A DNA stretch of 64,000 nt, taken from contig CM073322.1 of the NCBI GenBank assembly GCA_037043015.1, positions 12,659,601-12,723,600 on the forward strand. The letters run 5' to 3'. Below the pieces are notes generated by a model. The model was not told the origin of the DNA. It worked only from the letters and a program-made list of their open reading frames with translations, and ran no database searches. The position numbers were made by a program, and so were the translations under genes. Shown in pieces: positions 6,363 to 35,245 of the stretch (positions within the stretch are counted from its first letter, which is position 1; every line of letters begins with the position of its first letter). The stretch is from Bryum argenteum. Taxonomy: Eukaryota; Streptophyta; Bryopsida; Bryales; Bryaceae.

Positions 6363-7336
6363 CCCTTAAACACCCACGATGTCGAAAAACGACATTTTGG
6401 ATGTACATCAGAAACTTTGAAGAGCCATATCTTCTTCATCCAAGTTCCGTTTTGGATGAAATCACTTGGATTAGGTTCCAAATCAAGTCTAGTTTGTGTT
6501 GTAAATTTTTCAAGCCCATACAATAAAGTATGAATTAATGGAATGCACTTTAGTGAAGACAACTCTTGTTTTTGGGTTTCCAAGCATGGGGCATGTATTA
6601 CCATTGCAAGCCAATTATGTGAAATTAAAAATAGTTTTTCATGATTTTTTTTTTTCATGGTCATGATCTTAAGGTGATTCTTAAAAACTTTGTAGTGAGA
6701 ATTTTTTTGATCCAAATGATTTTGCTATTGGATTTGCAATGACGTTTTCTCAACAGAAATAGTGAGAAAATGGATGATATTTGAAGAGCTATATCTCCCT
6801 CATCCACCATTGGATTTCAACTTAATTTTTTGGGATGGCCTCCAATTAGAGTCTAGTCTAAGTGGTAGAAACCTTAACAGGATCGAAGATGTTTTGAAGA
6901 TAAGGCATGAAATTGAATGCAAAGGGTCTAGTTATGGACTATTTTTCCTTTGAAAAATGTTCGGTAGTTTTTACCATTGCATGGCTTTTATTTGAGCCAA
7001 GAAATTTTTTTGATGAATTTTTGTTGGGTAAAGGACTTATTAAGATGAAGGTGAACATCTTTCTAGTTGGTGATTTTTTCATTGCAATAGGTATATTGGT
7101 AGCATTTCCACCTCAAAGTGAAAATGATGAAATTTTGCAGTTTGTTTTTGATATTAATATGTTATGGTCTCCCGATCTATAAGGCCTCATGACTCAAATT
7201 TTGATCCACATGATCTTCGATTAGTCTATAACAAGTTTGTACGGTTGAGATCTTAATAGCTTCTCTTGATTTTCATCTATGACGATTTCTATGGAAATGT
7301 GCTTTTCTGCTAAAAATAGGCTCGGGCGTTTAGGGG
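6363..7336. mobile_element. Putative TTAA-flanked (piggyBac-like) non-autonomous element, 974 bp
   Basis: The left end reads TTAA then CCCTTAAACACCC (TTAA at 6359-6362). The right end reads GGGCGTTTAGGGG then TAAA (7337-7340), an imperfect TTAA. The termini match the inverted repeats of the other TTAA elements in the window. The interior (6410-6950) is related to the dispersed repeat carried inside the hAT-like element at 28-35 kb, with shared landmarks such as CTTTGAAGAGCCATA and GAAATCACTTGG. No transposase frame is present. The assignment rests on termini alone. Confidence 0.5.
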
Positions 7337-7721: not shown

Positions 7722-8870
7722 ATGGGTGTCTCATTCGATAACCTGTCCACCCCCGAGGGCCTGAAGAAGCTCGACCAACACTTGGCCACCCGCAGCTACA
7801 TCTCCGGGTAAGTTCCAACCCCAGCTCGTCACCCTCTTTCCCTCCATCCCATTGTGCCCACTCATTTCGCTGTTGCCGAGAATACCCATATTTCGTTTGA
7901 TTGTAACCCAAGTTTTTTTCTCCGTTCAGGTATCAAGCCTCCAGGGATGACCTCGCCGTGTACGTCGCCCTCGACAGCGTCCCTGCCGAGTATGTGAACG
8001 CCGCCCGGTGGTTCAAGCATATTTCCGCCTTGGCCGGACCCCAGTATGACTCGAAACCTAGACCCTGCATTGAAGCGGTGACTGGGTTAATTGAGGTGCT
8101 GAATTTGCGTGGTTAATCTTTGTTAGGTTCGCTGCACCCGGAAGTGGCGTGCAGATCGAGAGTGGCGCTGCCCCCGCCGCGGCTTCCAAGGCTGCCGAGC
8201 CTGAGGCTGCTGAGGCCAAGGCTGTCACCCCTCCTGCTGCTGACGATGTACGTGAATTCAACCCTTGCGATGGACATTGCTTACATTACGGAATACGATT
8301 GGAGCATGTTTGCTTAGATGGTGTGATGTGCGTTGTGCAGGATGATGATGATGACCTCGACCTGTTCGGTGACGAGACCGAGGAGGAGAAGGCCGCCGCT
8401 GAGAAGCGTGAGGCGGAGAAGAAGAAGTCCGACAAGCCTAAGGTGATCGGAAAGTCTTCCATCGTCATGGACGTCAAGCCATGGGATGACGAGACCGACA
8501 TGGTGAAGCTGGAGGAGTGCGTCCGCGCTGTCCAGATGGAGGGTCTTCACTGGGGTGCTTCCAAGTTGGTCACCGTTGTTGCTGGTATCAAGAAGCTGTC
8601 GATCATGATGACCATTGTTGACGATTTGGTCAGTATCGATAACCTCATCGAGGACTACCTGACCTCCGAGCCCAATAACGAGTATATCCAGTCCTGCGAC
8701 ATTGTTGCCTTTAACAAGATCTGTGAGTCACCTATCCCGCCATGAATTAATCTTCGTTACTTTCAAATGTGTACTTACCACGAATTGGTGCAGTGTTCGA
8801 TCGATTCAAATGCAGGCTTGGACTTCTATGTTCTTAATGTCTGACATGTTGTCTTTGGGCTTGTGCAGAG
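7722..8870 (+). CDS. Translation elongation factor 1B beta (EF1-beta/delta type), guanine nucleotide exchange subunit
   Basis: Exons: 7722..7807, 7930..8043, 8127..8247, 8341..8722 and 8869..8870, giving 234 residues. All introns are GT-AG. The N-terminal GST-C-like region (MGVSFDNLSTPEGL) is followed by an Ala/Glu-rich linker, an acidic stretch (DDDDDDLDLFGDE) and the C-terminal exchange domain (from about VIGKSSIVMDVKPWDDE to DIVAFNKI). Plant EF1-beta proteins end in FNKI. Here the codon after FNKI is split: T at 8722, intron 8723-8868, then AG at 8869-8870, giving TAG. The neighbouring chimeric copy has the same arrangement, which supports the model. The protein recharges eEF1A with GTP in the cytosol. 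Without this last intron the frame would add six residues (CESPIPP less the stop context), so the alternative cannot be formally excluded. Confidence 0.9.
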
Positions 8871-9964
8871 AGCGATCAAGGATGTGGAATTGCGAATGGG
8901 CTTCTACGATCTTAGTATGAGTTTCAGTAGAAGCCTTATATAAAAGCTCAGACGGACTTGATCTATCTGTGTGACATTTTTGAATCTTATAAAGTGCAGT
9001 TTGTTTATAGGTATTTTCCATCAACTGTTGTGTCAAGTTTCGTGTTTTGTTGATTGCTTATCCGGATTCATTGACTCTCGTTTTTACAAATCTGAGCTGG
9101 TTGAATGATCGCCCGTGAATGCATATCTGGTATTACAATGCTGTAACTGTGCCGAGACAAAATGTTCTATGGATGGAAGTTGGTTTGATAGATATGGAAA
9201 TGTTTTCGTGGAGCTTCTCGCTAGCGAAGACTTGTCGTCTAAGATGATACTTGACACAGATCTGTATTTTATCAGTTGATTAAAATCCTCTGCATCCTAA
9301 GACCACACCCTGAAATCGAGGTGTTGTAACCTGAACATACTGTTCAAGTAAGCCAGTCTGCAAGCCACGAAGTCAACTACAATACCCTAACATTTCCTGC
9401 CAAGTACGATACGGAATGGAAAAGCATTATAAATTGAGATATTGTGAGATATGGAGAGTAGCCAATGTGAGATAGTGATAGTGGCAGATAGTGAAGGTAG
9501 CCTCCTTCGCAGTCCACAGTTCTCCTGTTGAGCTTTTCGCGATAGAGATTTCTTGACAGAGATTGAATCAAAATGGTGCGAAATATAAATTCTCGATTCC
9601 CCCTTAGTTCACATTGTTTGCGGACTTTGTCGTTGTCCATAGGAAGCAGAATGCTGGCACTTCTGAATCTTCTTGAGGGAAGAAAAAACCGCTTTAAAAG
9701 TGTGGTAATTGGGTTTATCAGTCATGCAATTATGATGGAATCTGCAACCACCTCATTCCTTTTAATCTCGTAACATTCTTCTCTAGCTTCAATGATCGAT
9801 TGTGGTCGTCGAGAAAATAAAACATGAGATGTTTGATTGTGTCATCACTAAAACAAAATACAAGATTATCAATGTTGACTATTCAATTGTGTCAGGTTTA
9901 GATTCTTATTTCTTGTTTTTGTCGCCCTACAAAACAAACAACTCTTCTTGTGAAACGGAAGATG
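8871..9964. other. 3' flank of eEF1B gene, no further gene
   Basis: The first 350 bases continue the last exon as the probable 3' UTR. Segments of it (TATAAAGTGCAGT, GGAGCTTCTCGCT) recur in the 3' flank of the chimeric copy at about 10890 and 11093, so the duplication included this flank. From 9250 to 9964 I see no gene. Confidence 0.5.
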
Positions 9965-10154
9965 TGTTATTACAGAATGTGATATTGAAAGAGGGACTCT
10001 GGCATACCGTACAGCAATACCGTAATCGTATCCTACATGCTCTTCGTTGAGCAGGCAGTAAAGTCCCGATTCTTCTGGCAATCACCTGGAACCGACAAGG
10101 GCAATATTCACATCGGTTTTTGCACCGACATAATCCAGGGTTTGATCGATCGCA
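9965..10154 (+). promoter_or_regulatory. Duplicated DJ-1D 5' region driving the chimeric gene
   Basis: This block aligns with 19270-19494 upstream of the DJ-1D gene. Shared landmarks are GTGATATTGAA-GAGGGAC, CTGGCAT-CCGTA, CGTATCCTA, CAGTAAAG and CAGGGTTTGAT-GATCGCA immediately before the ATG. It therefore appears to be a copied DJ-1D promoter end and 5' leader. Whether it is still active is inference. Confidence 0.65.
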
Positions 10155-10785
10155 ATGGCCGAATCCAAGGCGGAGCCCAGCCACTATGACGAAGATTACA
10201 AGGTGGATGGGGCACCCTTCAATCAATCCTTCGAGAATTTGCTGCCGAACTGGAATCATTTCACTTTTTCTTAACGTTGGCCAGATGGAGCGATTTACAA
10301 GTTCGTTGTGTCGTCTTGTGTAGGATGAGAAATTAAAGGATGATCTCGGCGACGAGGAGGAGAAGAAGTCATCCGACAAGCCTAGGGTGGTTGGAAAATC
10401 CTCCATCGTCCTGGACGTCAAGCCATGGGATGACGAGACAGACATGGTGAAGCTGGAAGAGTGCGTCCGCGCCGTCCAGATGGAGGGTCTTCATTGGGGT
10501 GCCTCGGAGGTCGTCACCGTTGTTGCTGGAATCAAGAAACTGAGGATTATGATAACCATCGTTGACGACTTGGTCAGTATCGATGATCTCATCGAGGACC
10601 ACTTGACCTCTGAGCCCAACAATGAGTACATTCAGTCCTGCGACATCGTCGTCTTCAACAAAATCTGTGAGTTACCGATCCCTGGACCTTCACTCAATCT
10701 CTGCCATTATTGCCTTTTTGCTCCCGGATTGAAAGGGGCCTAGCTAGAGTCCTATCCTGATATTCGGTTTTGTGACTTTGCAGAG
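10155..10785 (+). CDS. Chimeric DJ-1D-exon-1 / eEF1B C-terminal-domain gene
   Basis: Exons: 10155..10202, 10324..10666 and 10784..10785, giving 130 residues. Exon 1 (MAESKAEPSHYDEDYK) is a diverged copy of DJ-1D exon 1 ([19 protein letters not shown]), including the ATG context and the donor site after the last codon. Exon 2 starts DEKLKDDLGDEEEKK and continues through the eEF1B exchange domain to DIVVFNKI. The frame is open throughout, the splice phases match (phase 0), and the split T|AG stop of the parent gene is kept. The GST-like N-terminus of eEF1B is absent. If expressed it would be a short exchange-domain protein under DJ-1D control. Changes from the parent are mostly conservative, with a few notable ones (SKL to SEV, AFNKI to VFNKI). 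It could also be a recently silenced pseudogene; no disabling change is visible. Confidence 0.7.
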
Positions 10786-11789
10786 GGAGAGAGATCATCC
10801 AGGCTGTGGAAATGCAACCGGGCTTCTATGATCATAGGACGAGTTTCGGTAAAAGCTTTGAACTGTCCGCGTTGCATTTCAGATCATCGTAAAGTGCAGT
10901 ATGTTAATAGTTACGTGTTTTTGTCCGGCTCTTGTAACGTAAATCTCCTGTTTTGTGGATCCGTTGATTGTTTCGAGCTTGGAGTAAACTTTAGCGGTAT
11001 GGCTGTCGAATCCACTGCTTCTTGGAGGGGTTTAGCTTGGGTGGTATTTGGCTGCTTAAGCTTCAGTTTCGAGTTGCATGCATGTGTTTTCGTGGAGCTT
11101 CTCGCTCATCGTTCAAAACTTGTTGATGATTGATTCGTAGCCGAAACCGAAAACATTTGGTTCCTAGGATTGTGAAAATCCAACTCTACCCTAGGTGCCT
11201 CTAGTACATGTATAAAGTGCCTGCAATTTAATATCTTGTAAAGTTTGGATTTGACGAGTGGTGTAAAAAATCTCGTTTGTTACCTACTTGAAATTACACA
11301 AAAAAAATATTCAACAAAACTTTCTACCCAACCATGTAGATGGAAATAAACTACAATAGATCATTCTTATGTCCGTGGTAGCCTAGGGAGGAGAGCTTAG
11401 TTGAACTCTTTTTGTTGTGTAATTTCAAGTTGGTAACAAATGAGAGGTTCGTTAAAAGTGGCATTAGAGCTCTCGACTCAACCATGGAGATAGAAGTAAA
11501 CCATGATATATCATTCTCCTCCTTTGACTCTATTCATAAGATCCACAAAATGTAGGTTTCTGACTGAAGATTTTTATTTATTTCTCTTTATACCAACCAA
11601 TTGCTATCATAATAGTATTTATCCCAAATAATTATTTTCAAGTTCACCTCGTAATTAAGGAGCCACCTTGAAATTAATAAAACTTGAGGTCACTTTTATA
11701 AATAAATTCGAGGTCACTTTTATAAATACAGTTTCTCAACTTTGGTTCACATATTCTCAAGATAGGGTTGGCTAGCTCCACATCACATT
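10786..11789. other. 3' flank of the chimeric gene, then AT-rich spacer
   Basis: The first 330 bases match the parent eEF1B 3' flank in pieces (TAAAGTGCAGT, TTTTCGTGGAGCTTCTCGCT), showing a DNA-level rather than a cDNA copy. A 101-codon frame at 10828 lies inside this flank and is not supported. The rest is AT-rich and includes a short inverted-repeat element at 11276-11440. Confidence 0.5.
11276..11440. mobile_element. Short MITE-like inverted repeat element (165 bp)
   Basis: The 26-base arms at 11276-11301 and 11415-11440 are inverted copies (TTTGTTACCTACTTGAAATT and its complement) with one mismatch. The interior (ACCATG-AGAT-GAA-TAAAC-A-ATAGATCATTCT) reappears in diverged form just downstream at 11485-11525. 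No target duplication could be fixed. Confidence 0.5.
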
Positions 11790-13779
11790 CACTACTAGAA
11801 TACTGCCCTGGTAGCTACGTTTTTTCCGCTACGTTTTAGGTTTTCGCTACGTTACGGAAATTTGAGACTACGCTCTCTAAGATGTTGAATTCCCTGTCTC
11901 CGGAGCTACGATTGCACTATGTTCTTTGGGAACAGCTCTGTTTTTGGGGTACGCGAAGTTCCCTCGAATGCGACGTCCTTTGTACGCGGTAGTTTTAGTG
12001 TTGCGTGAATCCTGTCAGGTACTGTAACTACACGTGCCCAACGAAGAGGAGGGGTTCAGACTGACTTGGTGCTATTTTAGGCATAGTCTACCTAGGTAGA
12101 TTGAATTATCACTATGTTATATACCTACTCGAATGGAAATCACGATGGTCAATTTCAAGCCGACTTTTTAGAAGACGTAAAAGTAAAAGGTCACTGAGTG
12201 TGTGGATTTCATGGTAAGTTAGTATTTTAACTAAAAAATTGAATATTAGTTGGGATAGGTAAATGATAATCTTGGGTTTGGAGTTGTTCCTGGTTGATTG
12301 AAATTCACTTATGAAGAGGACATATGGAAACACGTAAACCATGAAGTTTTATAGTGAACTTACATTTACTATCGCACAAGTTTCACATTAATTTTTCACC
12401 ACTTTTGTACCGAAATGGAATAATAGTTATGAGATAAAAACAAGGTTGCAAATCTGTTCCGTACGTATGGACATAGTCTATGGTGATTCTTTCTACTTTT
12501 ACTGAAACCAATTACTCGAATTCATACTTATTGGATTTGGTTTTTATTTCATAAGTCCCAAATTATCAATTTAATCCCGCGGCTACGGTTTATGGTGAAC
12601 GTATGATTCCGTCTTATGGGGTGACTCCGATTGCACTCCGGCGGATCAGGCGGATCATGCCTTGAGTCGGGTAGAAGGATGTAAACCAAAAAGTAACTTC
12701 TGGCAGTATTGAATAAGGTGTAGGAAATATTTAAAGTGTATATTGTCCTGTGCAGGAAGGGCGCGAATATTGAGGACCCGCGGATTGAAAGTCCGAATAT
12801 TTCAGCTATGGTGGCAGCGATATCCATTGAAAGGGCGTGTTTGTCGGCAACGAAGGCGCAACAGATGAGATGTGGCGAGTCAGCGTGAATGCAACCTCGT
12901 GAAGTTGCCGAAAAGGCTGGGAGGTACGTAATCTGCAAGGTGCATTCTCCAATAGAGGTCATGCTACGAAGGATGCCGTAAGCAGAAAACAGTAATTCGG
13001 GGTAATTACTCCGTAATTATGGTGCCTTTCGTCAATTTGCAATTCTGCGTAGATGCTTTGTCAGCAAGGAAAGTTGTTGGGTGGCTATACAACCTCCTGA
13101 CGGTGATGGTTGTTTCAATGAAGAAAACGGCGCATGACTTCAATTTCAAGTACGGCAGAGAGGTCTGAAAAGCGAGCAGTAGGATTGCTAGAAACTGTAC
13201 CGTCAACGTAAGAAGCTGCATTTCAAGGTTAGCTTCTGAGACCAACTGGATAGGACTTTTTGGTTCAAACGCATTCACAGTTTACTCGTTTCTGTTCTGC
13301 ATCAAATTCTTTAGATACTTGTGTGCCGAATTAGACTACACAATGCAGAAGTGACATTGCGTGCTATACTTCTTCTTCATGCACTGAAACGCAGGGGGAA
13401 CCAAACGGAGTACCTCATGCGCTTCAGAAATCTCATAAATGTTGATGGCACTCACATCTCGCAGTATAAAGAAACTGGCATTGCCTTGAAATGTGTTGTG
13501 TCTGTGTAGAGAGCATTTTCTGATTCATATTTAGAAAAAGGGTATTCACAAGCTTCTGTGTCGTATAGGGAGACCACGGTTTCGAAATATGGGGCGATGT
13601 CGGAAATCGGGTCGTCTAAGGTCCGCAACTATGTACAGAAAGACAATCCCTCACTTAGGCACGGAATTCCAAATTCATGATGCCGTTAAAGGGCTGCGGA
13701 TCGGACCAGGAGGAAGATACTCAGAGAGAAGAGCCACAGTCTTCATCGGATGATGTTAGTGCGGACGATCGTGACTAAC

Positions 13780-15074
13780 TGTCGCGCACCTCTCCTTGAG
13801 GAGTGCCCGCAACACCAAGGGCCCAAGGGGGACACCGGAGTGACGCCCGGGCCTTGGGGTGCCAAGGTGAAGGGAACCTAAGTGGGCCTAGTGTGGGAGA
13901 GGACCCCGGGCGTTGGATACGCCTCTCACCCACGGAGACTAGGAGCCACGAGGGAATGGACATGAGATTATGGAAGCTCATGTTGCCACGATTCCGGGAT
14001 GCTAAGGAGCACCTCATTTGGAGGTGTGAGCTAAAAGTTATGGGAGTTGGAAGATTGTGGGACTAAAGGGAGTGCTGTCCAGGGACAGTGCTGGACTGGG
14101 AAGCTGGCCCGGGACTCCCGAATCTTCAGAGGGGCATAACTCCCTCAATACTTGTCGGAATGAGGCAAGTAAGGTGTCTATCGGCATCTACTTGACGAGT
14201 AGATGTCGATAGAGTGGTCGCTCGTTGCGTTTGGATGCGGGACGAGGTAGATACGAGCCCTGGAAGGTTCGGGAAGTCTCTCGGGGCCTTCCAGCGGCTA
14301 AGGCATTGGGAGATTGGGTGGTCTTCCAAACTTTAGAGGTGTGAGGGTCCAGCCCTTCACCTAGGACCAGGGGCTGCCGAATCCCACAGAGTATACTATG
14401 GGGAGGGCTGGTCTCCCTCCCCACTCCCATGGTGCCTTGGTGGTGACCAAGGTGGGAATCCCGAGTGGTGTGGCTAGTGTTGGGGCCTCACCATGGGGAC
14501 TCCCAAGCCAAGGTGAGTCCCAATGGGTGGAGCTAGTGTTGGGGCTCCACCATGGGGACTCAAAGTGCAAAATGAGGCACGGTGGGTGGAGCTAGTGTTG
14601 GGGCTTCACCACGGTGGCTCATAAGGACAAGATGAGTCCCGGTGGGGGAGCTAGTGTTGGGGCTTCACCACGGGGACTCATATAGGCAAAATGAGGACCA
14701 TGAGTGCTACCGATGTGGGGTGGTGTCTCACCGCCGGCGTTGTGATTACTTGGTGGCCTTGGGGTCACCATGGTGGTCATGGGCGGTGGTGAGGAGACAC
14801 CACCAAGTGCGGTTAGGCCGAGTGGTATGGGAGTGCCACCAAGTTGGGCCTTGGACATAAGTGGAAGTCCGCACCTAACCATTGGCTACCTACGAAGGGG
14901 TTGAGTCCCGGTTGCATGAGTAGGAGGGATTGATAACCAAGCGGTGAGCTTGGTGGTTGGTATGGGGAGCTAACCTTGTGCATGTGGGGGATGTGCAGAG
15001 TTAGCGCTCGTGACACTTGCTAGAGTTGGGAAAGAGTTGGTGTAAACTAAGGTGAGCTAGCAAGGGTTGCGACA
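13780..15074. mobile_element. GC-rich solo LTR (1295 bp) with CTAAC target duplication
   Basis: The element begins TGTCGC and ends GCGACA, a perfect 6-bp terminal inverted repeat with TG...CA ends. It is flanked by CTAAC at 13775-13779 and 15075-15079, a 5-bp target duplication typical of LTR retrotransposon integration. It is much richer in G and C than its surroundings and contains no gag or pol frame, so it is best read as a solo LTR. An internal tandem repeat lies at 14473-14710. It sits inside the CACTA-like element, so it is the younger insertion. Confidence 0.8.
14473..14710. repeat. 59-bp tandem repeat, four units, inside the solo LTR
   Basis: The landmark GCTAGTGTTGGGGC recurs at 14473, 14532, 14591 and 14650, exactly 59 bp apart each time. 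Each unit continues with CACCA-GG-GACTC. The units diverge slightly. The array probably arose within the LTR. Confidence 0.85.
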
Positions 15075-16108
15075 CTAACTCTGGTAGATAACATTTCTCA
15101 GATTCCATATACAAAATTGTACGAGTTGTATACCATTCTGTACATGTTGTGAATATATAGAACTTATTGGCACGTTCATAGACATTGGCGGTAGTATGCG
15201 GTAATTGCGAGTTTTTCAGTATTATTAACGTATCTCGCAGTGCTCACGCTGTAGTTCTTTTCAAACACTACTTGTTTGCAAGATTTGGAATGTGTGTGCT
15301 CGTTTTTAACTCATTCTTTCGTATATCACAAGTACCGTAGGTATGCGAGTGATATAGTGGAACTACTGGCTCATGCTAATTGATACCGCATTATCAACTG
15401 AGGACTGAAACAGACCCATTCGATTGGCAATACAAATTCTGTATTTCACTAGCATTTCAGCCACTTAAGTATCTGCACGTCTCTAAATCTAAGCCCTTCT
15501 TGAAATGCTTTTAAATTCTTCATTTAACAGTGAGATCGATTACTTTCTCGTATCCACGTCTCGAAATCACAGCCTTTCCTTACTCGAAAATAGAACGCAG
15601 TATGACATCATCGACATTTCCGAGTTCCAAAACCATTCTATTAATAGTAAGTGTAAATCTATTTCAGGCAGTTCCATTCACCTATTCTTTTTACTTATTC
15701 AATTGCTTCATTTTACCACAAACTTGTAATTACTAAAAACTCTAATATTTACCACACCGGACAAATAATTTCACCCGACTAACAATCACAGTACATGTTT
15801 ACTATTTACCTCACGAGTTTAGATATTCATCATCCCGGATAGAAGTTAACTCTCTCGATTACATCTTGGAGTATTGGCCCCCCCTCCCTCCCACGTGCTT
15901 CGTTTGCGGTTGGTAACTCGAACTGCTTGGGAACGACCGGTACCCAACAGGGATGTATAGTGTAGCGGATGCTACACCCCAACGTAGCTTGTTAAATAAC
16001 TACGTAGGCCTGTAACAAAAACGACGAGTTCTGGAGACCAAAGTCGGACAGGCCCAGTGTATTTAGCTACAATTTTGCCGTAGTTCGCAGTGATGAATCC
16101 TTGTAGTG
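15075..16108. other. Right part of the CACTA-like element
   Basis: After the LTR target duplication the sequence returns to AT-richer DNA with no supported gene. Short frames at 15505-15736 have no recognisable content. The region 15960-16020 carries inverted subterminal motifs matching the left end of the CACTA-like element. Confidence 0.4.
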
Positions 16109-16316
16109 ATTGAAGTTCTTTAGCTCTTAGTTCATTATATTTAGGTTGAGGTTCAGGAACTCCCATCATTTCATGCAAGCGATATGAAGTAGTTTAACTC
16201 TAGTGCATATGTTTTCAATCTGGAGTTGTCTAGCCCCACTTGTTTTTTGCTAACACTTTGATACATTTTTGTTTGGTAGTGTTTGTAGAGTGGGTTGATT
16301 TTCAAGCACCTATGTA

Positions 16317-17252
16317 CAGTGGGGTACAGAAATAATTCGAACTGCATTTGAAGGCCGTTTTTGAAAAAAGTTTGAAATGTGCCTGTATACTCAAAAATCA
16401 TCGGATTTGTAATCCGTAAAAGGCGTTGGAACCACGTCAAAGTGTTTTACACTATCATTGCAAAAAAGTGCTTCTTTTTTGTAAAGTTTTTCAAAGAACT
16501 AAAACTTTACATGTTCCATCCACAATTGACCATTGTCGCTTTGTGCTTCAATTACAATGTTCATTTTCACTTGCAAAATTGATATGAGTGCCATAAGTTG
16601 TACTTTAGATACTTGAGCTCATTGTTGAATGTTCAAAAATACTTGCTCCCTCTAAACTTTTGAGTTGGAGTGGTTTCGTGATAAGTTTCCAATCAACACT
16701 TAAGGTGGGAAATTGAACTTTGATTTTAACCTCGGCGAGAATGATAAAGAATTTGAGTTTGGCAATGAGCTTATGAAAGTAATGACCCTAACTTTATCAA
16801 ACCATCCTTTAAGTCCTTGTAGGACATTTCTAGTGATGTGAATGGCTTCACAAAGTTTTGAGAAAAATTGAATAGTCACAAGCACATTCTAAGACATTCC
16901 TCCCACCCAAGAAACAAACAAGGAACATATCAATGATTCAATAAGCATGGGCTCAAGTATTTAAAGAACAACTTATGGCACTTATATCAATTTTGCAAGT
17001 GACAATGAACATCGTAATTGAAGCACAAAGTGATAGTGGTCAATTGTGGATGGAACATGTAGAGTTGTAGTTCTTTGAACAATTTTACAAAAAAGAAGCA
17101 ATTTTTTGCAGTGATAGTATAAAACACTCCGATGTGGTTCCAATGCCTTTTACGGATTGCAATTCCGATCATTTTTGAGTATACAGGCACATTTCAAAGT
17201 TTTTTCAAAAACTGCCTTCAAATGCAGTTCGAATTATTTCTGTACCCGACTG
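16317..17252. mobile_element. Tc1/mariner-like foldback element (936 bp)
   Basis: Termini are CAGTGGGGTACAGAAATAAT at the left and the inverted CAGTCGGGTACAGAAATAAT at the right, flanked by TA on both sides (16315-16316 and 17253-17254). The inverted arms are long: 16317 to about 16605, and about 16968 to 17252. The short matching frames seen on opposite strands (FEYTGTF and related) are just the two arms read outward, not genes. The loop holds no transposase. The TA target and CAGT...ACTG ends are typical of the Tc1/mariner superfamily. Confidence 0.75.
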
Positions 17253-17829
17253 TACATGAGATGCTATCAACTTGGCTGTCAACATTAATGTACACACCTA
17301 CTACCTACTGCTAGTTCTCCGCATATACCACCTTTTGCTTGATGATCTTGCACCAAATTTTCCTCTCATTGCTGAGTATACCTTTAGGTCTTTGGCCAAT
17401 TACGAAAGTTCTTTCTCTTTCTTGCATCTGCTATCTAGAGCACCATTATTTGATGTATGACATTTAGGCTTGCCCTTTATTGCTTTCAAAGACGTTAAAG
17501 ATAACCATAACTTAACTTAGAGTGAATAAATGGTACATATGGAGTGTCCTAGAAATAAGCAAACCACACTTTATTGAGTCAAAAAATACATGTGCACAAG
17601 GAATTTGGAAATACCATAATTCTGAACGTTTTTAAGATGTTCAAGTGTAGATATTTGCCTCTCGGAGAACCCATTGTGCGAGTATCAAATAATACATAAA
17701 AACCAGTAGATGGGAATTTTAATCTGTTCCAAAATGTTCAAAAGAAAAAGTTGTGGTGATGAAATACATCATGCCCATGTAGAAATTAATGAGTGCAAAA
17801 AGAAGATAGGTAAGTTCTTATATAAGACC

Positions 17830-18117
17830 CACTACAACAGATTTAAAGTTTTATGACATTCGGCATAGTTTTATTGTCTGAAGCGACTAAGAGTAAATGA
17901 CTGAAAATATGACTATTGGTAATCATCTTGTAGCCATGTTTTGACAGTTCGTTGTCACATGTCATTACAAACAGTTATAAGATGTAATATGTGAACACAA
18001 GTGATGAGAAGAAGACTTCAGAATGACAATATTCATAATTTCAAGTTATTTATTCTTAAACACTTCGGAAAATATGACTATGCTCATTGTCATAAAACCT
18101 TGAATTTTGTTGTAGTG
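17830..18117. mobile_element. CACTA-type MITE (288 bp) with ACC target duplication
   Basis: Left end CACTACAACAGATTTAAAGT and inverted right end CACTACAACAAAATTCAAGG are followed on both sides by TTTTATGACA and a related GCATAGT segment, so the terminal inverted repeat runs for roughly 55 bp with mismatches. ACC flanks the element at 17827-17829 and 18118-18120, the 3-bp duplication expected for CACTA elements. No coding capacity. Confidence 0.8.
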
Positions 18118-19060
18118 ACCCTAAAAAGCCCCTATTAAAAACAAATATAATACTACCACACCTAAGGTCAAAAATATAGTGCTTCTTAATCCCTACGTAT
18201 CCGTTAAATCGAAAATGAGTTTTAATTTTAGCAACCATTTTGAAGGGACCGAAATTTGCTTAAGATTTTTATAGGGTGCTCTTTACACTAGAGAGTGCAG
18301 GTGGTAAAATTTCCAAAGCCAAATTCCAAATTTAATACCTTTATCTAGAAATTTTAGGTTTCAAGTTCAAAATTGGCCATTTAATTTTAGACTTTTAGAT
18401 AAAATTTCATAAACAAATCATTATTCAAGTTCCAAAATCACCTAAGTCAAAAAGTTTGCCAATTTCACAAGGGCAGCCTCCAACTTCATTAATAATTTCC
18501 AAATTATTTCTTACAATTGAGATATTTTTTATTTTATTTTATATATATATATATATATATATTTAACGAGAATTCACAAACTCATAAAGGCACCTATTCA
18601 CCGTTTGAGAATTAAATAAAATTTATATATTTAAATGTGGTGCATGTTTTTCTATATTATTATTTTTATACCATCGTCAAGAAAACAATTTGAATATAGG
18701 TGAATAAAACAAAATGAGTCTCTAAAATTTTGCTTGAGGGTACCCAACTTGATTACCTACATGGAAAAAAAATCTACCCAAAATGTTTGGAGTAACAAAC
18801 TTCAACTTGCCCTTGGCACCATTTACACTATGTGTCCCTGACAATGGCCAAAAAAAAACTTTTGCATCAACTTCAAATGTTATGATCTCACAAATGGAGA
18901 AGATTCAACAATTGAAAATCAGCAGTAATGTACAAGATGGTACAGTTGGAACTCTAAAAAGAGAGAAAAAAGTTTGCTTCACGTGGCCGGGAGTGCACGG
19001 GACTTAAATAAGGGAGTTTTGAGACTTCTTGCTTACAAAACAACAAGGGAATTTATAAGG
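18118..19060. other. AT-rich spacer with a dispersed repeat copy and an AT microsatellite
   Basis: No gene is supported. A dinucleotide AT tract lies at 18540-18562. The stretch about 18426-18990 is a diverged copy of a dispersed family also seen near 27640-27845 (continuing at 35246), 31900-32130 and 48036-48250. Landmarks are AAGTCAAAAA-TT-CCAA and TACAAGAT-TTA-GGTTGGAA. Confidence 0.45.
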
Positions 19061-19063
19061 TTA

Positions 19064-19224
19064 AGAGACGCTTTACATTGGGAGTCAAGTCGCAGATTGG
19101 GCCGTAAGAGGGGAAAAATTGCACTAAGGTGATTGGTTCATTTTTTGAACTACGAGCAATGAACCAATCACACAAGAAGAAATTTTCCCCTCCTATCGAC
19201 TTGATTTTCCATGTAAAGCGTCCC
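19064..19224. mobile_element. PIF/Harbinger-like MITE (161 bp) upstream of DJ-1D
   Basis: The left end GAGACGCTTTACATTGGGAG and inverted right end GGGACGCTTTACATGGAAAA are related and extend into matching GATTGGTTCATT segments. TTA lies directly outside both ends (19061-19063 and 19225-19227), as expected for Harbinger-type insertions. It lies about 270 bp upstream of the DJ-1D start codon. Confidence 0.6.
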
Positions 19225-19269
19225 TTACTTCTTCATTGGTAGCTCTCTTGATGATTATTAAGAATCATT

Positions 19270-19494
19270 GTTGTGATATTAAAAAGTGTGATATTGAAGA
19301 GGGACCCTGGCATTCCGTATATCAGCACCGTAGTCGTATCCTAAGTGCGCTTCCTGGAGCAAAGCTCACATCACAGTAAAGCTTCGATTCTTCCAGAGGC
19401 GATTACGAAGCTCACACCCACAACCCGATAAGGGCGGCACTCACATCTCACATTCTCTGCTGTACGAATCAGTGCCAGGGTTTGATTGATCGCA
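19270..19494 (+). promoter_or_regulatory. DJ-1D proximal upstream region and 5' leader
   Basis: This segment immediately precedes the DJ-1D ATG. It was copied, with exon 1, to 9965-10202, so the donor copy extends at least to about 19270. No TATA box or named element is certain. The duplicate gives a natural comparison for which bases are conserved. Confidence 0.5.
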
Positions 19495-21720
19495 ATGGCC
19501 AAATCCAAGGCGGTCCTTATGATCGTTGGCGACTATGTCGAAGATTACGAGGTGGGTGGAGCACCCTTGAATGCCTCTCTGTTTCTCCGATTGCTCGCTT
19601 TTGTAACATTCCATCGATTCGATGTTTGAATTTGATACCCTTCCGGTTATTGAATGTGAATTTGGGGTTTTCGAATTTTTGTATTTCGGCCTCCCCTGTT
19701 CACTGTGTGGCGATGGTGTGGCAATGTAGGTGATGGTTCCGTTCCAGGCGCTTCTGGCGTTCGGATTGAAGGTGGACGCCGTTTGCCCTGGAAAGAAAGC
19801 TGGTGAACAATGTGCAACTGCTATCCATGACTTCCTTGGACACCAGGTGTGCACCTTTCGCTTCCATTGATCCTCGAGATTCTTGCGTGTCGTACTGAAG
19901 ATATACGGAGCTGTCTCAATTAAGACCGAAGAACGACGAGCCTTCTGAAGCAGAGTGGAGATTTTACAGCCATGCTGACGAGTTAGTGAACATTTGATAC
20001 ATTCTTTTCTCTACTCCTGAATCATCAGGGGCTCACCGAATAAGAGGAAACCTAGAAGCTTGTTGAAAGCAGGCAAGTAGCCTCATAGGTTCAATCAAGC
20101 ATCTCGTCTGACAATGAAGAAGCGGATCTTCATGTAGTGAGGAATTTATGGTGAAATGAGATGCCTGGAGTTAGGTGAATGCCTTTTCATGTATGTGGTT
20201 CTCATTTTGCAGACCTACTCGGAGAGCAAGGGCCACAATTTCACATTGACAGCTGACTTCAAGGATGTGAACGCCGACAGCTACGATGCGCTCGTGGTGC
20301 CAGGAGGTCGGGCACCGGAGTATCTTTCACTCGACGAGGACGTGCTCAACTTGGTCAAGAAATTCGAAAGCTCTCACAAGCCGATCGCCTCGATCTGTCA
20401 CGGGCAACTCATTCTCGCAGCTGCTGGTGTTTTGAACGGCAAGCAGTGCACGGCATATCCAGCATGCAAACCAGTCGTTGTAGCCGCAGGTACAGCTTCT
20501 TCCTCTCTCTTTTCTTGAAGCCCTGCTGCCAACTATAATCACACTGATAGCCTCCTGTTCGATTCCTTCATATTTAAAGATCCGAGCCCCATTTCAGCCT
20601 CATCATGTCTTTTCGATTGCCGATTTTAGTTCACTAAAAGGCTTCTGTTCGAACACAGGTGGCATATGGAAGGATCCGAGCCCCATTTCAGCGTGCTTCA
20701 CGGACGGCAATCTCGTAACGGGAGCCGCTTGGCCAGGCCACCCCGAGTTTCTGAAACAACTCTTGCAGGCTCTAAACGCCACAATATCGGGCGGTGAGAA
20801 GAAGATCCTCATGTTGTGCGGGGTACGTGCACTTGGACGGATTGAATTCGTCGAGCAAAGGATACAGTTACTGACTTCGCCCTTGTGCAGGATTACATGG
20901 AGGATTACGAGGCGATGGTGCCGTTCCAAACCATGCAAGCATTAGGGTACCAAGTGGATGCAGTATGCCCTGAAAAGAAGGCCGGGGATACTTGCAAAAC
21001 GGCTGTTCACGACTTCGAAGGTGCCCAAACATACAGCGAGAAGCCAGGCCACAATTTTGCTCTCACAGCCACTTTTAGCGACGTGAAGGCGAGCGAATAC
21101 GACGCACTCATCGTGCCCGGAGGCCGTGCTCCTGAATACTTGTCTCTCAACGAGGATGTCTTGAATATCGTCCGCGAGTTTGATAGCGCGAAGAAACCCA
21201 TCGCGTCCATCTGCCATGGCCAACAAATCCTTGCAGCAGCTGGTGTACTCAAGGTACTATCACCACTTCCTCGATATCTGCTGTTTGAATCCGCGATAAA
21301 CAGTGTGCACTTCAGTATATTTAGTACAGTGTCAAGTGGATGTTGTGTTTCTATAAATGTGTGTATGCTTGTCATGCTTTCTCAATATTCAATAGTTTGG
21401 CTGAATATTCAGTTCGCTGTAGGAGTTGTATACCATATATTATCGCTTCGAGATTCAGGATATCGAGATGTGGGTGATTCTTGCCTGGAATAGTAATAAC
21501 TTCGAACGCTGAGCTGAGATTGTGCGTGCAGGGAAGGAAGTGTACTGCTTATCCAGCTGTTAAGAGCCAGGTTGTACAATCTGGTGCACACTGGTTAGAT
21601 GCAGATCCAATTTCCAAATGTTTCACTGACGCCAACTTGGTTACTGGCGCTGCATGGCCGGCGCATCCGGAGTTCGTTGCCCAGCTGATGGCTCTGCTCG
21701 GCACCACCGTTAGCTTCTGA
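19495..21720 (+). CDS. DJ1D: DJ-1D-type protein with two DJ-1/PfpI domains (glyoxalase III / protein deglycase family)
   Basis: Exons: 19495..19551, 19730..19846, 20213..20489, 20659..20822, 20891..21253 and 21532..21720, all GT-AG, giving 388 residues, the same length as I recall for Arabidopsis DJ-1d. Two tandem DJ-1/PfpI domains cover about residues 1-195 and 200-388. Each has the Glu of the active site (GDYVEDYE, E19; DYMEDYE, E212), the [10 protein letters not shown] loop and the nucleophile elbow ASICHGQ with Cys at 120 and 313. The family converts methylglyoxal and glyoxal to hydroxy acids without glutathione, in cytosol and nucleus. Both domains retain catalytic residues, so both may be active. 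Exon 1 and the upstream region were copied to 9965-10202 to form a chimeric gene. Confidence 0.92.
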
Positions 21721-22401: not shown

Positions 22402-24337
22402 TCACTCCCACGGGAAATACAGAGTCATATTCTTGTCGTAGGAGCCGAAGATGCGCTTGACGTAGGCTTGGAGCATGTGGTCGTGGACGTCGCAGTAGCG
22501 CGACTCCCAGTCCGCAGGCTTAATGGCTCGCGTGCCCAGGTCACGCACGCGATCATTGGAGGCGTGGTTCCGATTCTCGGTCCAGTCCGCGACGTGCATG
22601 GAGGCTCGCCGATGGAACTTGGTCTTGAACTCATCCCACGCCTGGAACTTGTAGTGATAGATCGCTGCCGTCTGCGGCTTGATCAGCTTCCTGCTGAAGC
22701 CCCGCCTCAGAGTAAAGTGGTGGATCACATTCTCCAAGTTGCTCTCCAGCGCGCTCAACAACACAATCGACTTATGCCGCTCCGTCTTCCTCGCCCGGCA
22801 TGTGTAACCCTGCGTCACCCCCTGCGGTGGCGACATCGTCCACCCAGATGGCCCAAAGTTGTAACAAAACACCGAGATTTGCCCCACTTTGTAACGCCCC
22901 GAAGTTTGAGCGGAAATGAAGCGCCTTATGATCGGCGTCTTCGGAGGACTCTTGCCATTCTGCAAGAAATGCCTGTTCGGGAGCAGGTACTCGTCGACGT
23001 CAGTGAAGAGCATCCATTCGCACTCGCTCTTCGCCGTCAAACTGCAATGCGAGAATCCAGCCTCCTGTGTCTTCACCCACGGCCATGCTTGCTTTTGAAC
23101 GTTGAACCCAGCCACGTTCAAGCTCGCAATCACCTCGTCTATGTCATCGTCGCTGTTGTTATCGTACAAGAAGAACTTCTCCACGCCCAAGTGGTTGTTG
23201 TAATGCACCCACTCTTTCAGAAACTTCGCCACGTTGTAGATCATCGTGCACGAGCACACGCGATACCTCGGAGGTGTCCACGTTTCCAAAAGCTTCCTGT
23301 TTACAGAGCCGGCAAGGGCCGGAGATTCGGATGGCTCCCGCCAGGGATAATAATACGCCACGGACGGCAAGAGTTTGTCGTAGTACTTAATGGAGATCTT
23401 CTTCCCCGCCAATTCGGGAACGAGATCCGCCGGAGGAAGCGCGCACCGGAAGACGCCTAGCGATTGCGCGGTCACTTTGGTCTCGTAATACTCGTTGTAC
23501 ACGCACCAATATGATGCCAGTCGTTGCGACTCTGGGACCGGGGGGCGGTGTCGGGCTTTTGTGTCATGGATCCCGTGCACGAACACCACCACGTCGTACT
23601 CCGTGACGACCGCTTCGAACGCCAGTTTGCTGCGTGGGAGCCCCCACGACAACGGCCACCGGTTCACACTAACCTTCGGGAGAATCTCCTCGTCCTGCCC
23701 CACTGCGAGGGAGATAGAGTTCATATCCCAAGGATACTCCTTCGGCGGCGCCGGGCACAGAATTGCCGCGCGGTGGTTGAAGAGATGGGACGCCTTCGCC
23801 TTTAAGTACGTGAAGAGAGTGGAATTTCCGTAGCGGCACTCCACTTCTGATTTGCTTGGAAACTCTGCATCGGGCGACTTCCGAACCAGAACCAGGATCT
23901 CAATGTCCATGTGTATCACATCTTCGATGTACGTCATGGATCCGATGTCCTCCTCCGTGCGGTTCCAGTATTCCGGCACCATCGCCGCCCGTAAACTCTC
24001 CAGCGCCCCTTCTGACGGAACTGCAACAAACAACTTGCCAATGAATCCATTGCCTCCGCACAATGACATGATCCAATACACATCTCTGGCTACCAAAACT
24101 CAAATCTACAATCTTTGAATGCTTGCTCAATATGACCCTACGAGAGCGAACTGAATCTTCAGAGAGCTTACTTCCATTCGGTTGAAATCCCACGAGGGCA
24201 ATGAGGGCAGCGAGGGCGAGGAGGATGAAGCAGAGGCAGGCGCGGCGCAACCACATTGGCCGACGGAGCTTGTCCAGATGCCGCTTAATCGTGGACTTGC
24301 TTTCATGCGAATCCGGATTGAAACCGTTAAACGCCAT
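22402..24337 (-). CDS. Glycosyltransferase family 92 (DUF23) protein, type II membrane protein, copy 1
   Basis: Exons: 24337..24172 and 24020..22402 (151-bp GT-AG intron, phase 1), giving 594 residues. The N-terminus is short and cytosolic, followed by a hydrophobic membrane anchor at about residues 33-51 (LCFILLALAALIALVGF), then a luminal domain. Family landmarks in order are CSCTMIYNVAKFLKEWVHYN, LGVEKFFLYDNNSDDDIDEV, the DxD-type motif FTDVDEY, YNFGPSGW and RCR-like TERHKSI. GT92 includes plant beta-1,4-galactan synthases and less studied members; this one looks closer to the Arabidopsis At1g27200-type group, so its sugar donor and acceptor are unknown. Expected location is the Golgi. It is a paralogue of the gene at 37188-39138, with which it shares intron position and the PSE start of exon 2. 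Confidence 0.88.
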
Positions 24338-27845: not shown

Positions 27846-28185
27846 CAGGGTTGTCTTGTTAGACACTATCGGACGTCAGACAGACACGACATGTCAGACA
27901 GACATTGAGCCTCAGAATGTCTAATAGAATATACAGAATCTTTTTTATACCATTGATTTACCCTATCCACGTTGCATCCTACGTGGCTGCCACGTGGCCT
28001 GTACAACTCAGCAATAAGGTGTGCGACTGCGCCACGTAGGACTGGACCGGCGGTTGCCTCGTCTGGACCGGCGGTCGCCTGAGCGACCGACGATCGCCCA
28101 TGAGCGACCGACGATCGCCCATAAGCGACCGACGTTCGCCCCTAGGCGACCACCAATACAGCCGATGGGCAAACGTCGCTCAGTA

Positions 28186-29878
28186 GGGCGACCGCCGATC
28201 TAGGTGATGGGCGAACATAGCTCAGAGGGCGACCGGCGGTCTACCCTCTAGAAACAAAGGACATGAACTTTGAAGAGCCATAACTTTTTCATTTGGACTC
28301 TGTTTTTGACGAAATCACTTGGGTTGGGTCCCAAATGAAGTCTATTTTATGTGGTAAAAATTGCAGACCCATACAATTAAGTATAAAAAATTGGCATGCA
28401 TTTTAGTGAAGGGAGTATTTGTTTTTTTGGGTTTTTAAACATTTGGCATGGTTTACCATTGCAAGCCTATAATGTGACATCAAAAAGGTTTTTGCATGAT
28501 GTGTTTTAGACAAGTGTGATCTTTAGATGCATCCCCCAATCTTTGTAGTTGGAAGTTTTTTGATCCAAATAGTTTTAGTATTGGCTTTGCAATGATATTT
28601 CTACGATGAAAAAAGTGAAAAAGTGGATGATTTTTGAAGAGATAGATCTCCTTCAACCATTGTTAAATTTTGAATTTTTATTTTACAATGGATTCCAATT
28701 ACAGAATGTTCATTGGCGATCGCCGGTTCCGCATGCGCGACCGCGGGTCCCGCATGGGCGATCGCCGATCCCGCATGGCGATCGCCGGTCCGCTGCAATT
28801 GCGGTTTGGGGCGACCGGCAGTCTGGAGGGGCGAGTGCACAAGAGCTCCCGCTCTTGCTCTTGGATCCTCTTTTACGCAATCCCTCAATCCCTCATATTC
28901 AAATTTCAAATTCACCGCTTCAAGCGTCTTTCCCGTTCCCCCTCGTTTCCCTTAAATCTCCCTTCATTTTTCATTCTCCATCTTCTTCAAATTTCATATT
29001 CTCCGCTTCTTCACATTTTCCATAATGAAATGAAAATGATTGTCATGGTCATGGCTTTTGGCCAAGACTCGGGAGCATGATAAATGAAAAATGAATTTTT
29101 GAGTGCCTTGGACACTCTTTTGGTGCAAGATGGATTTAGACATGTACAAGTTTAATCTCAATTTTAAAATAAAATTCTCATCATTCTCTCTTTTACCCTC
29201 CCCTTTTTCTTCATTTCCTTTCTGAATAATTGTACTCTAGCCAATCAATGATTTTTGAGCCTCATGGTCTCCTTGATAGTAGTTGAGTTGAGGCATTTAC
29301 TTCCACTCAACTACAATCAAGGAGACCATAAAATCATTATCCATTATGGATAAATTAGCATACTTTGGGGACTTTGAAGTTAGTGACCATTCTCCTTTCA
29401 TCAAGGTATTGTAAAGCCAAATGGTCAATCTTGAGGGTCCACAATGTAAAGTGAGCCTAAGACAAGTAGAGTAAAGGTACGCTTATTTCAAGTTCCTATA
29501 GTGTCTTAGTAGTGAATACAAGTGTTGAAAATATCTTGACTGTCATGATATTTAAGTTTAATTTATTCATCATAATATGGGCAAGGGATATCAAATACTT
29601 GCACGTCATTCACAAATAATGGGTTAAATATTATTATGAGTAATTGGTTCATTAGAATGTTTGTAAATGGTTATTGTTGTCGACTTATAATATTTACCTT
29701 CATATGGTGGTCACTCAATTTTTTGCCAAATCTATACAATGTTATATATCACACTTTAATTTGACAAGCAACTTTTTCCCTCACTTGTTACTAGGAAAGA
29801 TGCACGAACCCCTTTCTCTTAATTGTATTAGAAGGCGTTAATACTTAACCCGCCAAAATTTTCAAATGCGTCCCCCCA
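28186..29878 (+). repeat. Left 1.69-kb arm of the hAT-like foldback
   Basis: This arm is the reverse complement of 33159-34852 with only scattered differences; the clearest cluster is around 28795-28830 against 34205-34250. It contains a smaller hairpin at about 29258-29332 (GGTCTCCTTGAT...ATCAAGGAGACC). The open frames inside (28606-29025 and overlapping ones) occur identically in the other arm and show no domain, so I treat them as non-genic. Confidence 0.9.
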
Positions 29879-30584
29879 ATCATTTTAACCAATGTTATAA
29901 TGTTATGGGGCCGTAAACTAATTGCAAGGATAATCTATTAGCATATGTATACTCGGATATTGTATATGGAGAAGTTATAATTTATTAAAGACTCTACTGA
30001 TCTTAGAAGAAACTAAAATTTGTTCTTGAATGTGATGTTAGAATATATTATGAAGTTTTGCTGCAAAGATAGTATCTTATCTAAATGCTAGAAATTGATT
30101 GACATGATTAAATTCTAAGGTTGTAGATATTGAAGTGTTTGATGCATTAAAGAGGCTAAGACTTTGTAAATCAATACACATTTTATCTATTATTTTAAAT
30201 AGTTAGGCACAAAATGACTTGCTAAAGTATACACCATATAATAAAATATATATCATGTCATGCCTACCAAGAGGATGAGAAAGTGTCAACCCATCCTCCC
30301 TCCCATTCATTATTTCCAATTTAGAGATTTAGACCTCTCATGTCCATTTTTTATGAACAGAAAGATCATGAAATGGGAATTATGGGACCAATGATCCCAA
30401 ATTACTAGCATGTGCCTACTCCTTGTTAATTTAAACTAATACATTAAAAACTACATGGCTCTTTTACCCCTCCCCCAACCAATGTTCATCCTCATCTCAT
30501 CCTCTTAAGAGCTGATACGAACACTTATGGACTCGCATGCAACATAGGTGGGAGAATTCCCGACTGCAAAAAGAGCCGATCCAG

Positions 30585-31030
30585 GTGATGGGCGACCGTA
30601 GCTGAAAGGGCGACCGGCGGTCTACTTGATGGGCAACGACAAAGTGTCCGCGCGCCTATTTGTACCCCACTTGTTGGGGCGACCGCCGATATAGCCGATG
30701 GGCGAACTTCGCTCAGTAGGGCGAACGTCGCTCAGTGGGGCGACCGCCGATCCAGCAGATGGGCGAACGTAGTTGAGAGGGCGACCGGCGGTCTACCTGA
30801 TTTCCAAGGACAAAGTGTCCGCGAGCCTATTTGTACCAATCTTGTTGGGGCAACCGCTGATACAGCCGATGGGCGAACGTCGCTCAGTGGGGCGACCGCC
30901 GATACAGCCGATGGGCGAACGTATCTTACTGGGGCGACCACCGATACAGCCGATGGGCGAATGTCGCTCAGTAGGGCGACCGCCGATCCAGGTGATGGGC
31001 GAACGTAGCTCATAGGGCGACCGGCGGTCT
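30585..31030. repeat. GC-rich minisatellite, about 42-bp unit
   Basis: Units read approximately GGGCGACCGCCGAT, then A-CAGC-GATGGGCGAACGT, then GCTCAGT. At least six to eight partial units are present, some interrupted. Related shorter blocks occur at 28050-28240, 33015-33150 and 34800-35060 in the same element. On the minus strand the array reads as a 14-residue repeat (VRPSAVSAVAP), but there is no sign of a real gene. Confidence 0.75.
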
Positions 31031-33030: not shown

Positions 33031-33158
33031 TCTGAGCTACGTCCGCCCATCACCTGGATCGGCGGTCGCCCTACTGAGCGACGTTCGCCCATTAGCTGTA
33101 TCGGCGGTCGCCCAGGGGCGAACGTCGGTCGCTCATGGGCGATCGGCGGGGGAGGCAC

Positions 33159-34852: not shown

Positions 34853-35245
34853 CAACAGGAGGGGTACAGATTGGCTCGCGGACACTTTGTCCTTGCCCAT
34901 AAGGTCGCCTAGAAGCGGTTGCCAGGGCGACCGCCGGTCTCCATACTGGACCGCCGGTCGCCTACGCGCGGCAGCCAGGGCGATCGGCGATCGCAGCAGG
35001 CGACTGACGTTCGGCCCTGTGCGACCGTCGGTCGCCTTGCGAGGTCGCCTACCTGCGGTCGCCCACTGTGACGTGTATTTTGATTTTCCACGTCATTATC
35101 AACCTTACGCCACGTTGGAAAATAGCTTTTTACCATGTAATTTTTGGTATGGTCGACATTTTCGTCGATCGGACGTCTAACAGACATGTCCAATACGACA
35201 AATCAGACAGACATTCCGAAAATTGTGTCTAATAAGACAACCCTG

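Follow-up and report, generated by a model that had tools for sequence, protein, structure and literature searches.

Here, we asked whether a rearrangement between two neighbouring genes of the plant Bryum argenteum has produced a third gene that encodes a functional protein, by what route it arose, and what its product would do. The DNA analysed (the window) is a stretch of 64,000 nucleotides, C2:12659601-12723600 (contig CM073322.1), in a genome of 258.8 Mb in 25 contigs. On its forward strand lie, in this order, a gene for the translation factor eEF1B (7722-8870), a chimeric gene (9963 to about 11123) and a gene for DJ-1D (19272-21720). The chimera consists of the 5′ end of its downstream neighbour joined to the 3′ end of its upstream neighbour, between two intact parents whose frames are open. 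That it joins a DJ-1D 5′ end to an eEF1B 3′ end is confirmed by the comparisons below, and the similarity on both sides is real. To the fuller reading, that the chimera is a protein-coding gene that arose by one local tandem duplication and would specify a nucleotide-exchange factor, we assign, from the sequence, a probability of roughly 0.57.

Homology of the two halves

Self-comparison of the window by BLAST revealed both sources. Positions 9963-10223 match 19272-19572 of DJ-1D (68.9% identity, E = 2.7e-32), covering the upstream region, exon 1 and the first 21 bases of the intron, and positions 10354-10960 match 8410-9054 of eEF1B (72.5%, E = 3e-103), with similarity in the 3′ flank extending to about 9235/11123. 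Ungapped identity to DJ-1D is 80% in the upstream and untranslated region and 83% in exon 1, where the alignment scores of 162.5 and 55 compare with maxima of 12.5 and 5, respectively, among 50 shuffles; in the 100-200 bases beyond 9963/19272, similarity between the chimera and DJ-1D scores within the shuffled range. The exchange domains of chimera and parent are 88% identical over 104 residues.

At the sensitivity of our genome search, the segment 9860-10330 was found in two places, itself and the DJ-1D gene of the window, and the segment 10670-11140 only in itself, even the parental eEF1B being missed; at this sensitivity, we reject any further genomic origin of the 5′ segment or of the exchange domain. 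An assembly artefact or a recent copy is ruled out by the divergence of about 12-30% between the homologous segments, and a retroposed copy by the retention of intron sequence homologous to the parental introns.

Gene model and splicing

The parents and the parts of the chimera are as follows, all on the forward strand.

7722-8870, forward: parent 1, eEF1B of the plant beta type, 234 residues (motifs defined as in PMC4447259, section 15); exons 7722-7807, 7930-8043, 8127-8247, 8341-8722 and 8869 onward, open frame intact
9963-10154, forward: upstream region and 5′ leader of the chimera, derived from DJ-1D (aligned with 19272-19494, no third genomic match), presumably with promoter content
10037-10189, forward: upstream ATG (T at -3, C at +4) opening a frame of 50 residues that overlaps the main start in another reading frame
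10155-10202, forward: exon 1, MAESKAEPSHYDEDYK, derived from DJ-1D exon 1 (19495-19551), 9 bases shorter and in frame
10203-10323, forward: intron 1, the first 21 bases from DJ-1D intron 1 and the 3′ end from eEF1B intron 3
10285-10323, forward: extra stretch that would be included if a rival 3′ splice site, the CAG ending at 10284, were used, running into an in-frame stop, as read from the sequence
10324-10666, forward: exon 2, a short acidic linker and a complete EF1_GNE exchange domain (PF00736 match and selection tests, below)
10667-10783, forward: intron 2, homologous to eEF1B intron 4 (8723-8868; score 30 against a maximum of 6.5 in 50 shuffles)
10784-11123, forward: exon 3, the last two bases of the split TAG, then 3′ untranslated region and flank homologous to eEF1B
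19272-21720, forward: parent 2, DJ-1D, 388 residues with two DJ-1/PfpI stretches, exons joined by eye

Under the proposed splicing (10155-10202, 10324-10666 and from 10784), the chimera encodes 130 residues followed by a TAG that, as in the parent, is split by the last intron. GT and AG are retained at both introns, and exon 2 is shorter than the parental exon by 39 bases, a multiple of three. Directly before exon 2 stands an in-frame TAG (10321-10323), so that translation starting at the DJ-1 ATG would reach the exchange domain only after removal of intron 1.

The composition of intron 1 locates the join. The score of 10203-10223 against the DJ-1D intron was reached by none of 1000 shuffles, and that of 10224-10323 against eEF1B intron 3, with the acceptor end included, by 5 of 1000; as controls, comparisons with the DJ-1D intron and with eEF1B intron 2 gave 890 and 366 per 1000, respectively. 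The sequence thus places the rearrangement join between 10223 and about 10280, the left side being firm, the right side reaching significance only when the acceptor end is included.

The preliminary description of this locus had proposed that a local DNA-level rearrangement joined DJ-1D exon 1 to the exchange exons of eEF1B, and both homologies, together with the intron remnants, support it. The similarity of the 5′ part to DJ-1D, whose absence it took as refuting, is real by self-BLAST and by shuffling, and the 130-residue frame that it saw open to the split stop of the parent is borne out under the proposed splicing. The two matches that it delimited were both found, but the one to DJ-1D continues beyond exon 1 and ends within the intron, at 10223; likewise, the join does fall within intron 1, but 10202/10324 are splice sites and not its position.

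Selection on the exchange domain

Selection was estimated on the 98 ungapped codons that begin at SDKP; of the 114 codons of exon 2, the initial 16, where the alignment is gapped, were dropped. Only 10 of the 98 residues differ between chimera and parent. The NG86 method gave a nonsynonymous divergence (dN) of 0.052, a synonymous divergence (dS) of 0.58 and a ratio (omega) of 0.089 (bootstrap 0.03-0.18), and maximum likelihood an omega of 0.073, with omega fixed at 1 worse by 2ΔlnL of 41.5. The preliminary description had named dN/dS against the parental domain as a check, and the ratio indeed lies far below 1. Making the chimera branch neutral worsens the fit by 2ΔlnL of 23.3, 24.4 and 25.2 for a parental omega of 0.0001, 0.05 and 0.089, respectively; in 5000 simulations of such a branch, the mean was 45 residue differences and none had as few as 10. 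A relic that was neutral throughout is rejected by both the likelihood comparison and the simulations. The frame stayed free of stops in 943 of the 5000, so that the residue count is stronger evidence than an intact frame by itself. Taken together, the sequence comparisons point to purifying selection having preserved the exchange domain of the chimera.

The picture for the DJ-1D contribution is different. Over 15 of the 16 codons of exon 1 (the codon at the deletion was dropped), the proportions of nonsynonymous and synonymous differences (pN, pS) are 0.176 and 0.188, and no protein constraint was detected on these 15 codons; in the chimera, several of the hydrophobic residues encoded by DJ-1D exon 1 have been substituted or lost through in-frame deletion. 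A Pfam search with the 130 residues, only 16 of which derive from DJ-1D, returned no DJ-1 domain at E 0.001. It seems that the DJ-1 part contributes a start and a tail, and no DJ-1 function: according to the sequence, one module was kept by selection and the other became a linker, the kept module being the catalytic core of a basic translation factor.

Predicted product

The match to the EF1_GNE profile (PF00736) scores 92 bits against a cut-off of 20.8 and spans residues 44-130, profile positions 2-88 of 88. The predicted structure, modelled from 3 sequences only, has a predicted local distance difference test score (pLDDT) of 74, with ten-residue blocks at 71-90 from residue 41 onward. When it was searched with Foldseek, ranks 1-9 (nine PDB matches with E ≤ 0.001) were all EF1-type entries, with template-modelling scores by target length of 0.91 for yeast 1f60_B, 0.77 for archaeal 2yy3 and 0.78 for archaeal 7csl; human 9a9s was also matched. 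Positions counted by hand on the 1f60 alignment place a lysine of the chimera at yeast K205.

Excerpts of PMC4447259 assign binding of eEF1B-gamma to the N-terminal domains of eEF1B, and exchange activity and eEF1A binding to the C-terminal domain. The preliminary description was right that the chimera lacks the N-terminal part, parental exons 1-3, the portion that binds eEF1B-gamma, having no counterpart in it. For plant eEF1B-beta, section 15 of the same source gives a CK2 motif, FG-(E/D)-ETEE, and a CDK motif, TP-(P/S)-(V/A); the parent carries FGDETEE and the CDK-type TPPA, and neither motif occurs in the 130 residues of the chimera. Most likely, judging by these features, the product would exchange nucleotides on eEF1A as a free factor, not as part of the eEF1B complex, with which it might possibly compete. 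That it would compete for eEF1A or recharge it, as the preliminary description has it, is a deduction from the domain. The stress-type DJ-1 promoter imagined in the preliminary description finds no support: nothing indicates a stress response, or a promoter identity, for the 190 bases shared with DJ-1D.

Searching the genome with the EF1_GNE profile found 3 places, namely, the chimera, its parent and, on C6, a diverged copy without introns. The last (L027 1498-2223, around 11542734, minus strand) is an eEF1B-like intronless open frame of 241 codons, 37-41% identical to the other copies and possibly an old retrocopy. None of the three places was identified as eEF1B-alpha, the C6 copy being untyped.

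Origin of the chimera and competing explanations

We propose that, ancestrally, a gene for eEF1B-beta lay directly upstream of DJ-1D on the same strand, and that one tandem duplication, whose breakpoints lay in eEF1B intron 3 on the left and in DJ-1D intron 1 on the right, would have yielded eEF1B, a DJ-1D 5′ end fused to an eEF1B 3′ end, and DJ-1D, leaving both parents whole. DJ-1D would thereby have donated the upstream region, the leader, the start codon and 16 expendable residues, and eEF1B the whole nucleotide-exchange domain, the stop and the 3′ end. The chimera would be transcribed from the DJ-1D-derived elements and spliced at 10202/10324, and the product, of about 14-15 kDa, would serve eEF1A as a guanine-nucleotide exchange factor, acting outside the eEF1B-gamma complex and without the CK2 and CDK sites of the parent. 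Gene order and strand are those expected from one tandem duplication with two intronic breakpoints, and Kimura distances (K80) are of the same order on both sides of the join: 0.24 upstream, 0.36 in intron 2 and 0.30 in the 3′ flank, values that come from gap-optimised alignments and lean low.

The proposed history bears on two spacers, the second of which is crowded with repeats.

9236-9962, forward: spacer between eEF1B and the chimera; no other genomic copy found
11124-19271, forward: spacer between the chimera and DJ-1D; largely repeats

In the second spacer, an element at 11790-16109 is matched end to end at 96-97% by a copy on C9, except for a nested element at 13780-15074, which has at least 37 near-complete copies at 98-99% and was probably active recently, nested in the older one. 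A repeat at 16313-17256 has at least 40 near-complete copies at 92-98%, and one at 18301-19065 has tens of copies at about 70-79% among the best 40 of 4385 candidates; the best 40 candidates were scored in each of these searches. Inverted repeats lie at 11271-11445, 17830-18117 and 19062-19227. By our own sum, about 1.5 of the 8.1 kb lie outside repeats, against 0.7 kb for the whole first spacer. The ancestral interval was probably short, because the long second spacer consists largely of inserted repeats.

A number of observations weigh against the reading of a functional gene from one duplication. A simple tandem-duplication model predicts residual homology between the spacers unless repeats or deletions have removed it, and none was detected between 9230-9955 and 11115-19265 (best score 21.1 bits; median of 100 shuffles 24.0), even though alignment persists in intron 2 and the 3′ flank. 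The match to eEF1B intron 3 loses significance without its last 12 bases, the acceptor end (155 of 1000 shuffles). The donor of intron 1, AAG/GTGGAT, looks weaker than the GAG/GTGGGT of the parent, and use of the rival acceptor CAG at 10284 would yield a stop. The overlapping upstream ATG at 10037, which has no counterpart in DJ-1D 19272-19494, where no ATG precedes the start, could reduce translation, an effect that is relevant only if transcription begins upstream of 10037. All selection tests are pairwise, counting the changes between chimera and parent together over both branches. With respect to activity, the aromatic position of yeast F163, counted by hand as above, is Ala in the chimera and in the parental eEF1B alike, and a partial text of PMC10844748 reports that F163A in yeast raises Kd about 6.5-fold; plant eEF1B-beta, the type of the parent, is reported in the excerpts of PMC4447259 not to complement yeast eEF1B-alpha mutants. 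Because it is common to chimera and parent, the Ala is probably older than the duplication. In human 1b64, the eEF1B position of this pocket-binding aromatic residue is Tyr.

The lack of mutual spacer homology also favours an origin in two or more events, in which a duplicate of the eEF1B 3′ end came first, bringing upstream sequence of its own, and the DJ-1D segment later, or in which a transposon carried captured pieces to the locus. Mobile elements abound in the downstream spacer, and the 5′ segment is less diverged than intron 2 and the 3′ flank, a difference that constraint on the leader would mimic. The order and strand of the three pieces nevertheless match a single tandem duplication, retroposition is contradicted by the intron sequence kept on either side of the join as well as in intron 2, and, apart from the DJ-1D match, the genome search turned up no second copy of 9236-10330. 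Moreover, with the second spacer largely made of repeats, the failure of spacer homology is a weak refutation, its loss through repeats being plausible. We regard a multi-step origin as unlikely, though deserving of serious attention. A different doubt concerns the present state of the gene: the chimera could have been functional for most of its history and now be unexpressed or mis-spliced, its frame intact owing to the short time elapsed. The weaker donor, the rival acceptor and the new upstream ATG would all fit such a recent death. When neutrality was confined to the last K of 0.05, 1147 of 2000 simulations had at most 10 residue differences and 1374 of 2000 had no stop, so that late neutrality would make the present state an ordinary one and keeps this explanation in play; set against it, GT-AG at both introns, the start and the split stop are all kept, and the exons as modelled contain neither frameshift nor stop. 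On these grounds, a recently dead chimera appears improbable to us. Finally, the exchange domain might be translated from another start, in an upstream exon or at the internal Met, residue 57, leaving the adjoining DJ-1D segment irrelevant. Exon 1 is without protein constraint and exon 2 does contain an in-frame ATG (MVKL), but the 24 aligned codons before this Met are themselves constrained (pN 0.053, pS 0.255, from few sites) and encode the first strand of the fold in the predicted structure; furthermore, the in-frame TAG stands directly before exon 2, and the chimera has kept the start, the donor and 21 intron bases of DJ-1D. This makes another start very unlikely.

Relation to known systems and significance

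Chimeras formed by tandem duplication are a known kind of gene: the partial text of PMC5460883 reports 76 chimeric genes from tandem duplication and exon shuffling in Drosophila yakuba. Those chimeras come from a population sample, whereas the plant chimera is old (dS 0.58) and has a repeat-filled spacer and a constrained domain. With its parent, plant eEF1B-beta, the chimera shares the last intron, the split stop and the Ala at the yeast F163 position, and it differs from it in lacking the N-terminal part, TPPA and FGDETEE. The fragment of yeast eEF1B-alpha crystallised with eEF1A (1f60, 2b7b and 5o8w; 90-94 residues) corresponds to the part that the chimera keeps, with the K205 equivalent present and F163 replaced by Ala. 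Archaeal EF1B (2yy3, 7csl) is, like the chimera, an exchange domain that stands by itself, about 90 residues long, but identity is only 20% and the chimera retains an N-terminal tail of about 40 residues; the likeness is one of architecture, not of descent. Among the matches listed in our search of open-licence literature, no title or opening of an abstract described a fusion of the eEF1B exchange domain with the 5′ end of another gene; one of the papers listed, PMC5851275, concerns chimeric genes at the origin of eukaryotes and mentions eEF1B 8 times.

Our broadest suggestion is a tentative one, which we hold to be possible and somewhat doubtful: a land plant would have gained, by one tandem duplication, a second and independently regulated exchange factor for eEF1A that is reduced to the bare catalytic domain. 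Such a factor would escape both the eEF1B-gamma scaffold and CK2/CDK control, would stand under the upstream region of another gene and would have been long kept by selection, in effect restoring in a eukaryote the plan of archaeal EF1B. If this is true, eEF1A recharging could be adjusted separately from the eEF1B complex, and the chimera, if expressed, would provide a natural test of whether this recharging in plants needs the eEF1B scaffold. The locus combines an old chimera with both parents at its flanks, such that a mechanism can be proposed from gene order; if related species have it in common, the new gene could be dated and branch-specific tests would become possible.

Other features of the window

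Two long open frames form an inverted pair, at 22402-24096 on the reverse strand and 37570-39138 on the forward strand, with about 73% DNA identity over 2.1 kb; their products resemble glycosyltransferases. A large inverted repeat of 96% identity occupies 28076-34968; additional copies lie inside it, and one stands far off at 6413-6999.
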